Notes under the pieces: generated by a model
What the model saw: the letters and a program-made list of their open reading frames with translations, nothing else
What the model was told of the DNA's origin: nothing
Databases searched by the model: none
Source of the DNA: Candidatus Omnitrophota bacterium
GTDB taxonomy: Bacteria > Omnitrophota > Gorgyraeia > Gygaellales > Profunditerraquicolaceae
NCBI GenBank assembly: GCA_030691725.1
Contig: JAUYDQ010000108.1
Span: forward strand, 1-10,121
Direction of reading: 5' to 3'
Length of the DNA stretch: 10,121 nucleotides
Made by a program: the position numbers and the translations under genes
Shown: in pieces, positions 1,699-3,558 of the stretch
Layout: each line of letters begins with the position of its first letter
Position numbering within the stretch: position 1 is the stretch's first letter

Positions 1699-2469
1699 TT
1701 ATTTCACTCCTAAATTTTGCAGCGAAGAAGGATTAAGCTTATTCGTCCTGATCTTCGCTAACTCCCAGCTGTATTCATAAAGGTGCAGACCTTTGCTGAC
1801 AGCGACAATCTCGCCGTCGCCAACACCAATATCTTGCGCCATATATTGCTTTACTAACTGCAACCCGCCTAAATTAGAAGGAAACCCGCCCCATAAATCC
1901 CAAGAGCGAAAATATAAAATAAAATGCAGCTTTCCATAGCGTACCCTTGTATCTATAAGCCTAAGGCAGGGCGGATCAGCTAACTTTATATCCGAAGGCA
2001 TGCCAATCTCCATTATTGCCTGATTTGTCCCAAATCCTTGCTCTTTATAAATCTTTATTACTTCTTCAATCTGATTTACATTTAGAGGCATTTCTTTAAT
2101 CATATCTTTGCCGTCAATATTTTGTTTTACTCTTACTTTTGGCTCAACTAACCTCTCTCCATATGTATAATCTTCAGTCTCGGTTTTTACACCAGTCATA
2201 AGGTAATTTAAATAACCCTGGATATATTCCATATCTGTAGGCACAGGAATGCTCATTCCCTCCGGGATTATGGGAATAATTTGATGTGACGGTTTTTTTG
2301 TCCTCACAACCACAAAATCAAACTCCAGGCGTTTCTGTCCTTCGTAACTGCCCCTGGTTATGGTATAGACATGCCCTTTATCGAGTATCTGAGATAGACA
2401 CTGGAACCAGGCATCGTCCAGGTCAAATGCATCAATAAATACCGGTTCTAAGAATTCTCTCTCTGACAT
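1699..2469 (-). CDS. thymidylate synthase, ThyA fold, divergent subfamily
   Basis: The protein has 256 residues and would methylate dUMP to dTMP with methylene-tetrahydrofolate. The C-terminal half carries the full catalytic set: Cys168 (ADPPC), Arg188 and Asp191 (FRSWD), Asn199, His229 and Tyr231 (LHLYEY). The spacings from Cys to Arg, Asp, Asn, His and Tyr (20, 23, 31, 61, 63) equal those of E. coli ThyA (C146, R166, D169, N177, H207, Y209). Asn199 is the residue that favours dUMP; dCMP hydroxymethylases have Asp there, which argues against that activity. The N-terminal half and the motif RSWDLWGGFPSN are unlike classical bacterial ThyA, so this belongs to a separate, archaeal-like branch; I leave the symbol blank. 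It follows tRNA-Gly by 26 nt, with no clear Shine-Dalgarno before the ATG. Its folate need fits folP upstream. Confidence 0.85.
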   Translation of the reverse strand: MSEREFLEPVFIDAFDLDDAWFQCLSQILDKGHVYTITRGSYEGQKRLEFDFVVVRTKKPSHQIIPIIPEGMSIPVPTDMEYIQGYLNYLMTGVKTETEDYTYGERLVEPKVRVKQNIDGKDMIKEMPLNVNQIEEVIKIYKEQGFGTNQAIMEIGMPSDIKLADPPCLRLIDTRVRYGKLHFILYFRSWDLWGGFPSNLGGLQLVKQYMAQDIGVGDGEIVAVSKGLHLYEYSWELAKIRTNKLNPSSLQNLGVK

Positions 2470-2495: not shown

Positions 2496-2566
2496 AGCGG
2501 GAGACGGGAATTGAACCCGCGTATATAGCTTGGAAGGCTATTGTTCTACCACTGAACTACTCCCGC
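2496..2566 (-). tRNA. tRNA-Gly(TCC), CCA not encoded
   Basis: The acceptor arms GCGGGAG and CTCCCGC pair perfectly. The D-arm is GTTC/GAAC, the anticodon stem is ATAGC/GCTAT around CTTCCAA (anticodon TCC), and the T-arm is CGGGT TCAATT CCCG-like. The discriminator is T73, usual for bacterial tRNA-Gly. The following bases are TTC, so CCA must be added after transcription. It is the only complete tRNA-Gly here; two broken copies precede it at 2634-2731. Confidence 0.95.
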
Positions 2567-2737: not shown

Positions 2738-3046
2738 TGGTGGGCAGGAGAGGATTCGAACCTCTGAAGCACAAGTGCAACAGATTTCAAGTGCCCTCAG
2801 GTTACCCTGAGGCTTGGACTATCTCATTACCTTAACCTGCCTGTTATAAACAGGCTACCGGCTTTAGGTAGCAGGCGCTTAGTCTCTGCACCTTCCCGCC
2901 AAAACTCTGGCGGGCTTGGCTCAGGATTGCCCTTGACCCATATAGATCAAGGGGTTCCCTGAATTCACCTACTTTTCCACCCCGCCTTTCGGCGGGGCGC
3001 TGCATTCTCTACAGTCTGTCCCCTTTGGCCACTTGGGTACCTGCCC
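2738..3046 (-). tRNA. tRNA-Tyr(GTA) interrupted by a group I intron, CCA encoded
   Basis: The exons are 3011-3046 and 2738-2787, joining to an 86-nt tRNA. The acceptor arms GGGCAGG and CCTGCCC pair; the anticodon stem ACAGA/TCTGT encloses CTGTAAA (anticodon GTA). A long variable arm (GCA CTTG TGC) marks it as class II, as expected for bacterial tRNA-Tyr. The T-arm is AGAGG TTCGAAT CCTCT, with A73 and an encoded CCA. The intron splits the anticodon between U35 and A36, so the tRNA cannot work without splicing. It lies 18 nt after tRNA-Thr(TGT). Confidence 0.95.
2788..3010 (-). ncRNA. group I self-splicing intron in tRNA-Tyr
   Basis: The 223-nt intron starts after a U (3011) and ends in G (2788). 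P1 pairs exon CUGU (3011-3014) with the guide GCAG (3000-3003), giving the diagnostic U-G at the splice site. P2 is CCCCGCC GAAA GGCGGGG (2980-2997). P3 pairs AGGTG with CGCCT. P4 pairs TCAGG (2958-2962) with CCTGA (2921-2925). P5 (CCTTGA/TCAAGG) and P6 (CCCGCCA/TGGCGGG) follow. P7 lies in GCAGAGACTA (2880-2889) and GATAGTCC (2816-2823), the R and S elements. P8 is GCTACC/GGTAGC, and P9 is CCTCAGG GTAA CCTGAGG (2795-2812). The Q element reads AATCCTGAGCCAAGC. There is no ORF inside. Splicing would use exogenous guanosine. The subgroup was not determined; the small size and tRNA host resemble the IC3 introns of bacterial tRNAs. Confidence 0.95.
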
Positions 3047-3064
3047 ATATATCTATCAAATCAA

Positions 3065-3136
3065 AGCTGGCGAAAGGAATCGAACCTTCAACCCGCGGTT
3101 TACAAAACCGCTGCGCTGCCGTTGCGCCACGCCAGC
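3065..3136 (-). tRNA. tRNA-Thr(TGT), CCA not encoded
   Basis: The acceptor arms GCTGGCG and CGCCAGC pair over 7 bp. The anticodon stem GCGGT/ACCGC encloses TTTGTAA, so the anticodon is TGT, reading ACA. The T-arm contains GTTCGATTC. The discriminator is T, followed by TTG, so CCA is not encoded. The 5' end lies 5 nt from the stop of the endonuclease gene. It opens a Thr-Tyr-Gly cluster in the same order as E. coli thrU-tyrU-glyT. Confidence 0.95.
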
Positions 3137-3141
3137 AAAAT

Positions 3142-3558
3142 CTATTTTTCAAGTAAATCAAACCTTGATTCATATTTTGATGCCATAATTATAAACTTCT
3201 TTTGTTTATTTTTTGTTGGTCTTAAACGTAGTTTACAACTACTAATATTTCTTGTATGGTTTAGTGGAATAAAATAAACTTTATTTTCTCTAGGATGATA
3301 TGCTGCAATAACATCGATATCCCTAAGTGAATAATGTATTATATTATAGTTATTTGAACTCCTAATAGACACATTGAGCGTCCCATTTTTAGGAGTAACA
3401 TATTTAACTTGAATGCGCTTAAAGACTCCGTTTTTCTCGGAAACGAGATCGTATCTATTATCTTCACCCCAGGGAACTAGCACATTAAACCCATTTTGCT
3501 TAAGTAAATAAGTAACGAAAGCCTCAGCTATATCACCTTTTTGTTTCGTAATAGCCAT
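3142..3558 (-). CDS. PD-(D/E)XK endonuclease, group I intron-associated (I-Ssp6803I type)
   Basis: This 138-residue protein has the core of a PD-(D/E)XK nuclease: Glu12 (KGDIAEA), Asp37 (NRYDLV) and Gln50-Val-Lys52 (RIQVKY). The Q-x-K variant and these spacings resemble I-Ssp6803I, the homing endonuclease of the Synechocystis tRNA-fMet group I intron, and the Pfam family named for intron-associated PD-(D/E)XK nucleases. Here the gene is not inside an intron: it lies 95 nt upstream of intron-bearing tRNA-Tyr, with tRNA-Thr between. The start follows the nnrD stop by 1 nt (TAAAATG), with GAGGTG 8 nt upstream inside nnrD. By hand count G+C is about 31% over 3181-3540 against about 46% for nnrD over 3601-3780, suggesting later acquisition. 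Cleaving intronless tRNA-Tyr genes is my inference; a restriction-type or other nuclease role is possible. Confidence 0.82.
   Translation of the reverse strand: MAITKQKGDIAEAFVTYLLKQNGFNVLVPWGEDNRYDLVSEKNGVFKRIQVKYVTPKNGTLNVSIRSSNNYNIIHYSLRDIDVIAAYHPRENKVYFIPLNHTRNISSCKLRLRPTKNKQKKFIIMASKYESRFDLLEK

Follow-up and report, generated by a model that had tools for sequence, protein, structure and literature searches.

The window, that is, the whole 10,121-nucleotide stretch of DNA analysed, carries on its minus strand a tRNA-Tyr(GUA) gene (3046–2738) composed of exons of 36 and 50 nt that are separated by a 223-nt insert. ARAGORN reported the gene when introns were allowed (tRNA-Tyr(gta) c[2738,3046], 223-nt intron), and it was reported neither by ARAGORN without introns nor by the Rfam tRNA model. 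The insertion splits the anticodon between U35 and A36, which corresponds to the position after nucleotide 36 of the gene. When joined, the exons give a canonical class II tRNA-Tyr fold of 86 nt including CCA in ARAGORN, a standard tRNA whose spliced anticodon loop would read CUGUAAA. The gene and its neighbors are arranged as follows.

3142..3558, minus strand: free-standing gene for a PD-(D/E)XK nuclease (PF11645) of 138 aa, ending 5 nt before tRNA-Thr and pointing in the same direction
3065..3136, minus strand: tRNA-Thr(UGU) (ARAGORN), the upstream neighbor of tRNA-Tyr, in the same direction
3011..3046, minus strand: 5′ exon of tRNA-Tyr(GUA), 36 nt, ending in C32-U33-G34-U35 (ARAGORN with introns; conserved in relatives)
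2788..3010, minus strand: group I intron, 223 nt, with omega-G at 2788 (RF00028 match, junction, and covariation)
2738..2787, minus strand: 3′ exon of tRNA-Tyr, 50 nt, from A36 through the encoded CCA (ARAGORN with introns)
2496..2566, minus strand: tRNA-Gly(UCC) (ARAGORN), the downstream neighbor of tRNA-Tyr

The Rfam group I intron model, Intron_gpI (RF00028), matched positions 2795–3003 of the minus strand over its full length (model positions 1–253) with 88.2 bits, compared with a bit-score cut-off of 50, and an E value of 5.6e-22. The sequence-only reading of this DNA had proposed a group I intron in tRNA-Tyr(GTA), 223 nt long and inserted at U35|A36, and had named this covariance model as a check; the full-length match and the ARAGORN result with introns both confirm the proposal, and the coordinates, strand, and length were borne out by the latter. 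The folding energy of the precursor was −142.9 kcal/mol (z = −7.7 relative to 100 shuffles). Protein-spliced tRNA introns of the archaeal or eukaryotic kind usually lie at 37/38, a position that the insertion at 35/36 does not share.

Between tRNA-Tyr and the intact tRNA-Gly, at about 2570–2735 of the minus strand, two pieces resembling the 5′ halves of tRNA-Gly were seen by eye, and they look like decayed duplicates; the tRNA search of this interval gave a single sub-threshold match (14.6 bits, 2605–2670). A 256-aa protein encoded at 1699–2469 (minus strand) showed a weak match to thymidylate synthase (PF00303, E 4.2e-11) that covers only residues 129–241.

The elements of the intron were placed by its structure and by an alignment (A1) of 33 Tyr introns; of the 35 complete ones found in this study, two (L035 and L050) were omitted for their long insertions near the 3′ end.

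3000..3014, minus strand: P1, exon 3014–3011 (CUGU) with intron 3003–3000 (GCAG), U-G at the splice site, extended by 3010–3004 (A-U)
2978..2999, minus strand: P2 with a GAAA loop (structure and alignment)
2870..2973, minus strand: P3, 2973–2966 with 2877–2870; the outermost pair is present in just 5 of 33 rows
2890..2962, minus strand: P4 (2962–2957/2926–2921), P5 (2953–2945/2938–2930), and P6 with P6a (2920–2890)
2817..2884, minus strand: P7, the guanosine-binding helix, 2884–2880 with 2821–2817, in a pseudoknot with P3
2829..2869, minus strand: P8, base ACCU/AGGU, adjoined by CCUAAA
2789..2815, minus strand: P9.0 (2815–2813/2791–2789), enclosing P9 (2812–2806/2801–2795) with a GUAA loop

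All four P1 pairs of CUGU with GCAG, including the U-G at the splice site, were invariant in 33/33 rows, and the U-G pair and the terminal G that had been noticed in the window alone were found in every aligned intron. The extension of P1 by the first intron nucleotide covaried: in 10 of 33 rows both partners differ yet still pair, and in four the pair is broken. Four of the five P7 pairs were invariant, and the fifth was formed in 31 rows. An invariant P1 and a nearly invariant P7 are as expected of a site-fixed guide and a guanosine pocket. The fourth pair of P8, formed in only 19 of 33 rows, is a weak spot of the drawn structure.

The named structure, including P7 and P9.0, was paired in 95.7% of the cells of the 33 rows, whereas six slid versions paired just 30.9 to 47.8%, a comparison that favors the named structure in that it was derived from one row of the alignment. 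Double-sided changes occurred in 32 of 69 pairs (21.6 ± 2.0 after shuffling; none of 500 shuffles reached the observed value) and in 240 cells (70.1 after shuffling), figures that are not probabilities because the rows share descent. P4, P7, and P9.0 vary hardly at all, and their support is conservation rather than covariation. RNAalifold, unaided, found P1, P2, P3, P4, P5, P6a, P8, and P9, placed P6 in a shifted register, and also recovered the anticodon stem, in which the two exons pair with each other; 31 of the 64 pairs it predicted had both-sided changes. Pairing of the exons in the anticodon stem was retained in all 33 rows. The P3–P7 pseudoknot, P4–P6, P8, P9, and P9.0 of a group I intron were therefore found across 33 homologs, which supports the earlier claim that P3 to P9 are present. 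A conserved P10 was not evident, as the base preceding GCAG is a U, and hence a possible partner for A36, in just 9 of 33 rows.

The L2 loop is GAAA in 27 rows and the L9 loop GUAA in 30, a combination that we take to fit subgroup IC3, and the CCUAAA beside P8 is presumably receptor-like for the L2 GAAA loop. As read from the rows, all 27 introns with GAAA in L2 have CCUA[AC] in P8, and three with GUAA do not. In these three (L031, L032, and L210), the loss of the receptor-like CCUA motif from P8 together with the change of L2 to GUAA suggests a swapped L2–P8 contact; they form one clade and so represent one event.

The host is an uncultured bacterium of the phylum Candidatus Omnitrophota. Among the 108 genomes of its family, 26 carry the intron at the identical site, 55 have an uninterrupted tRNA-Tyr, and 27 showed neither form. 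The carriers comprise 25 found by junction search and a congener (G065) whose contig ends inside the intron; the uninterrupted set comprises 54 genomes with the exact arm pattern and a stem variant (G059) missed by that pattern, and the carrier and intact-arm sets do not overlap. The genomes with neither form include four that are at least 90% complete (G006, G038, G067, and G071). A pattern for the 5′ half matched 79 of the 108 genomes and missed one carrier (G019). Genus g55, with 27 genomes, contains six carriers, 18 genomes with the intact arm, and three with neither. In a sample of 384 genomes of the phylum, the 3′-end pattern of the intron occurred in 27, of which 10 lie outside the family, across seven other families, and all ten of these are tRNA-Tyr introns. 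In 11 fetched relatives chosen for their intact arm, the intron site was empty in every case, tRNA-Thr was seen in nine, and tRNA-Gly in all 11. The 35 complete Tyr introns measure 181 to 266 nt; those examined encode no protein and are too short for a nuclease.

The same 3′-end pattern gave 41 matches in named contig records, which are partly from the same genomes as the family and phylum sets; such a search would miss carriers in other phyla whose introns end differently. A tRNA-Tyr 3′ exon followed in 31 matches, 29 of which also had the 5′ exon, and the other 10 had no tRNA-Tyr exon. The 31 records are named as Omnitrophota or Omnitrophica (29), Ca. Susulua of the phylum Omnitrophota (one), and an "uncultured bacterium" (one). 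The pattern, the only one used for this purpose, was found in no viral contig.

We propose that splicing would proceed by the established route of group I introns. In the folded tRNA-Tyr precursor, the GCAG guide of the intron would hold the 5′ exon end, C32-U33-G34-U35, in P1, exogenous guanosine bound in P7 would attack after U35, and the freed U35 would attack after the terminal G of the intron, placed by P9.0. CUGU would thereby be ligated to AAAUCU and the intron released, and the loop CUGUAAA would yield mature tRNA-Tyr. The intron RNA very probably removes itself from the tRNA-Tyr transcript; this view is based on anatomy, conservation, covariation, and the finding of no uninterrupted copy, the chemistry being that known for group I introns in general.

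The host assembly, of which the window is contig 48, consists of 774,362 bases in 143 contigs and is 82.97% complete. Neither Tyr nor Asn is represented among its 26 Rfam tRNA matches, the single tRNA-Tyr 5′ half found is the window copy, and a search with the exact pattern gave no uninterrupted tRNA-Tyr anticodon arm. Decoding of UAU and UAC had earlier been said to depend on splicing if this were the only tRNA-Tyr gene, and that premise holds as far as the assembly allows, since a second gene could be missing from an 83%-complete genome. Carriers appear to depend on intron splicing for UAU/UAC decoding, because the only tRNA-Tyr gene found is interrupted, and at the same site in dozens of relatives. 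We put the probability that the tRNA-Tyr(GUA) gene of the window, apparently the single one, holds an ORF-less, site-specific group I ribozyme at roughly 0.93.

Three other explanations bear on this reading. The interrupted gene might be a dead or slowly spliced copy, with an intact tRNA-Tyr elsewhere serving the decoding, as the incompleteness of the host assembly and the 27 family genomes with neither form would permit. However, the intact arm is absent by exact pattern from all 36 carriers (26 in the family and 10 outside), and 9 of the 10 outside the family reach 90% completeness or more with no more than 5% contamination. Family genomes have at most one 5′-half match each, except G028 (two, one at 3 mismatches), and the exons and core are conserved with covarying helices, all of which makes a dead copy very improbable. 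Some host protein, for example a tyrosyl-tRNA synthetase that binds the tRNA-Tyr exons, might aid or regulate splicing and make the intron a control point for tyrosine decoding. The exons here are indeed those of tRNA-Tyr, and according to the accessible part of PMC3984707 the folding of group I introns is assisted in fungi by the tyrosyl-tRNA synthetase CYT-18, but the host TyrS matches TIGR00234 from position 5 to 404 of 406 in a 404-aa frame and so has no large extension; we regard such a role as improbable, if slightly less so than a dead copy. The window is a contig of a metagenome-assembled genome, and an assembly or binning artefact could be suspected for that reason. The same arrangement recurs in assemblies from many projects, though, and in all ten carriers retrieved from other families tRNA-Thr precedes tRNA-Tyr (in three of them the stretch also includes a following tRNA-Gly(UCC)), and the chance of an artefact is close to nil.

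The Tyr intron has many sister introns in the family. At least 127 Rfam group I intron matches were found in at least 64 of the 108 genomes, the counts being lower bounds because at most 15 candidates were scored per genome. They were labelled, each count again a minimum, as tRNA-Asn (31), tRNA-fMet (26), tRNA-Tyr (25), 23S rRNA (17), tRNA-Lys(UUU) (5), tmRNA (5), tRNA-Arg(UCU) (3), and 16S rRNA (1), with 14 unlabelled. Labels were given to 60 by junction search (U or C before the intron, G at its end, at least three P1 pairs, a score of at least 116, and known 3′ exon starts preferred) and to 53 by a 3′ exon signature; the five tmRNA labels were made by pattern, and two of them (L111 and L126) were inspected. 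The first intron placements of ARAGORN for several relatives, such as those labelled tRNA-Thr or tRNA-Lys, were not all usable, and the junction search was used instead. At least 56 of the 108 genomes have one or more interrupted tRNA species, and at least seven have three.

In the host, tRNA-Asn(GUU) is also interrupted, at U35|U36 (L002, G000:C82:169-473); by eye, this intron has an extra hairpin before its GCAG guide. A host 23S match (L003, G000:C121:280-426), labelled by pattern, scored 30.8 bits, below the Rfam cut-off, and shows, as judged by eye, an apparently degraded endonuclease frame. In five of the 108 genomes (L030, L043, L051, L069, and L075), introns of a distinct group I lineage interrupt tRNA-Lys(UUU) at U33|U34. 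Two weak Rfam matches (L143 and L145) overlap frames resembling the window nuclease (33–35% identity) and have a tRNA-Arg(UCU)-like 3′ exon; from these features, they are probably nuclease-bearing Arg introns.

A tree of 70 introns, the 60 assigned by junction and the 10 Tyr introns from outside the family, had long branches, and in it the introns clustered by host tRNA (five label changes, compared with a shuffled mean of 31.6). In the free tree, the Tyr introns enclosed the fMet introns together with a single Asn intron; holding the Tyr introns as one clade was 4.3 log units better (p-AU 0.596), and they can be one clade on these data. The Tyr and Asn introns have the same CUGU exon end and GCAG guides. 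A shared origin of the two was considered, but the tree did not discriminate: constraining them to group cost 11 log units (p-AU 0.306). The idea that the guide also serves tRNA-Asp and tRNA-His gained no support, as none occurred among the 60 junction-assigned introns in a search that could have shown them.

The nuclease encoded upstream of tRNA-Thr matched PF11645 (E 3.1e-28, 98.9 bits, cut-off 26.1) and PDB 2ost (E 2e-7), which we take to be I-Ssp6803I and which the PDB lists as a putative endonuclease. Its ORF does not lie inside a group I intron, being placed 5 nt upstream of tRNA-Thr. Full-length orthologs (at least 67% identity) occur in 10 of the 108 family genomes, fragments in G017, G018, G043, and G067 not being counted, and all ten are on the same strand as, and 94 to 140 nt upstream of, the tRNA-Tyr 5′-half motif; tRNA-Thr was seen between the two in G000, G007, and G061. 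Four of these genomes have the intron (G000, G069, G077, and G096, 4 of the 26 family carriers), and six have an intact tRNA-Tyr (G007, G008, G026, G054, G057, and G061). A tight partnership of nuclease and intron was therefore rejected: among the 81 genomes with a scored tRNA-Tyr, the intron was present in 4 of the 10 with an ortholog and in 22 of the 71 others, with no evident association. The same protein family is encoded by a tRNA-fMet intron of Omnitrophota (L058; PF11645 E 3.9e-43, 2ost E 1.9e-46), and similar nuclease frames were found in many other fMet loci. An HNH-like ORF was found in 11 fetched tRNA-Asn intron loci; the one scanned matched Pfam HNH below the cut-off (E 0.0077).

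These observations bear on how the intron is maintained. It may be a selfish mobile element kept by homing through a trans-acting nuclease and not by vertical descent alone, which is compatible with the ribozyme reading. Its patchy presence within genus g55, the adjoining free-standing PF11645 gene, the nucleases encoded by sister introns, and the marginal rejection of the family f1 introns as a single clade (p-AU 0.047) are in line with homing; the last of these hints, though not strongly, at transfer of Tyr introns between families. By contrast, none of the 35 complete Tyr introns has room for a nuclease, no viral contig has the pattern, the clade test gives 0.129 for the set without two rows, and the full-length nuclease is found in few family carriers and also beside intact tRNA-Tyr genes. 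On balance, we consider maintenance by homing a real possibility at somewhat less than even odds. A more specific version is collaborative homing on a bacterial chromosome, in which the Tyr intron and the I-Ssp6803I-like nuclease would spread as a pair: tRNA-Tyr loci lacking the intron would be cut by the nuclease and would gain the intron during repair, in a phylum with at least five tRNA species colonised by fixed-guide introns. The phage case, in the accessible part of PMC3984707, likewise pairs an ORF-less intron with a nearby free-standing nuclease gene, but the setting here is a bacterial chromosome, and nuclease and intron do not co-occur preferentially; we regard collaborative homing as an unlikely, speculative model.

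As a kind, group I introns in the anticodon loops of bacterial tRNAs are already well known: they occur in tRNA-Leu(UAA) of cyanobacteria, tRNA-Ile(CAU) of Azoarcus, and tRNA-Arg(CCU), and they carry GNRA loops on P2 and P9. The Tyr intron resembles these in being a small anticodon-loop ribozyme with a U-G pair in P1, exon pairing in the anticodon stem, and such GNRA loops, but it differs, by description, in its tRNA-Tyr host, its 35/36 site, and its GCAG guide on C32-U33-G34-U35. Another known set of bacterial tRNA introns also includes genomes with two or more tRNA species interrupted but involves other hosts and another phylum, although tRNA-Arg(UCU) is interrupted here too (at least 3 of 108 genomes). 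We take Ca. Velamenicoccus archaeovorus to belong to Omnitrophota. The accessible part of PMC13153191 describes a 23S rRNA group I intron with a homing endonuclease in this organism, of the same phylum as the Tyr intron, and RNA reads that indicate nearly complete splicing; it differs in its rRNA host and internal endonuclease, and tRNA introns are not mentioned in that part. The Synechocystis tRNA-fMet intron with I-Ssp6803I (PMC1995217, in part) is likewise a tRNA anticodon-loop group I intron, and the Omnitrophota fMet introns encode a relative of its nuclease, but the Tyr intron has no ORF and the related gene adjoining it stands alone and is only distantly similar (2ost E 2e-7).

In the accessible parts of the respective papers, four tRNA genes are counted as bacterial group I intron hosts (PMC1995217), fMet and Ile2 are named as hosts (PMC8450103), and Arg-TCT and Leu-TAA introns are described in Beggiatoaceae (PMC4853749); an extent of 22 nt given for tRNA-Arg in the portion of the literature seen is too short for a ribozyme. 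The suggestion that tRNA-Tyr lies outside the known bacterial host classes agrees with these three papers, within a literature search that covered few subscription papers, and no published description of a bacterial group I intron in tRNA-Tyr was found among the titles and abstract openings searched. The tRNA-Tyr host and the 35/36 site are not described in the literature searched and appear new in that sense, as does the wide distribution in one phylum, although databases may hold unpublished calls.

These results add tRNA-Tyr, together with tRNA-Asn and tRNA-Lys in relatives, to the hosts that we found reported for bacterial group I ribozymes. The Tyr intron is no oddity, given the number of genomes with interrupted tRNA species in a single Omnitrophota family. 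Carriers seem to need ribozyme splicing to read an entire codon family, and consequently a standard scan calls an essential tRNA missing. A role in trans for the free-standing nuclease is an attractive idea, but genomes with its gene are not preferentially those with the intron. With carriers, empty sites, sister introns, and nucleases all at hand, intron gain, loss, and trans-homing in bacteria become directly testable.
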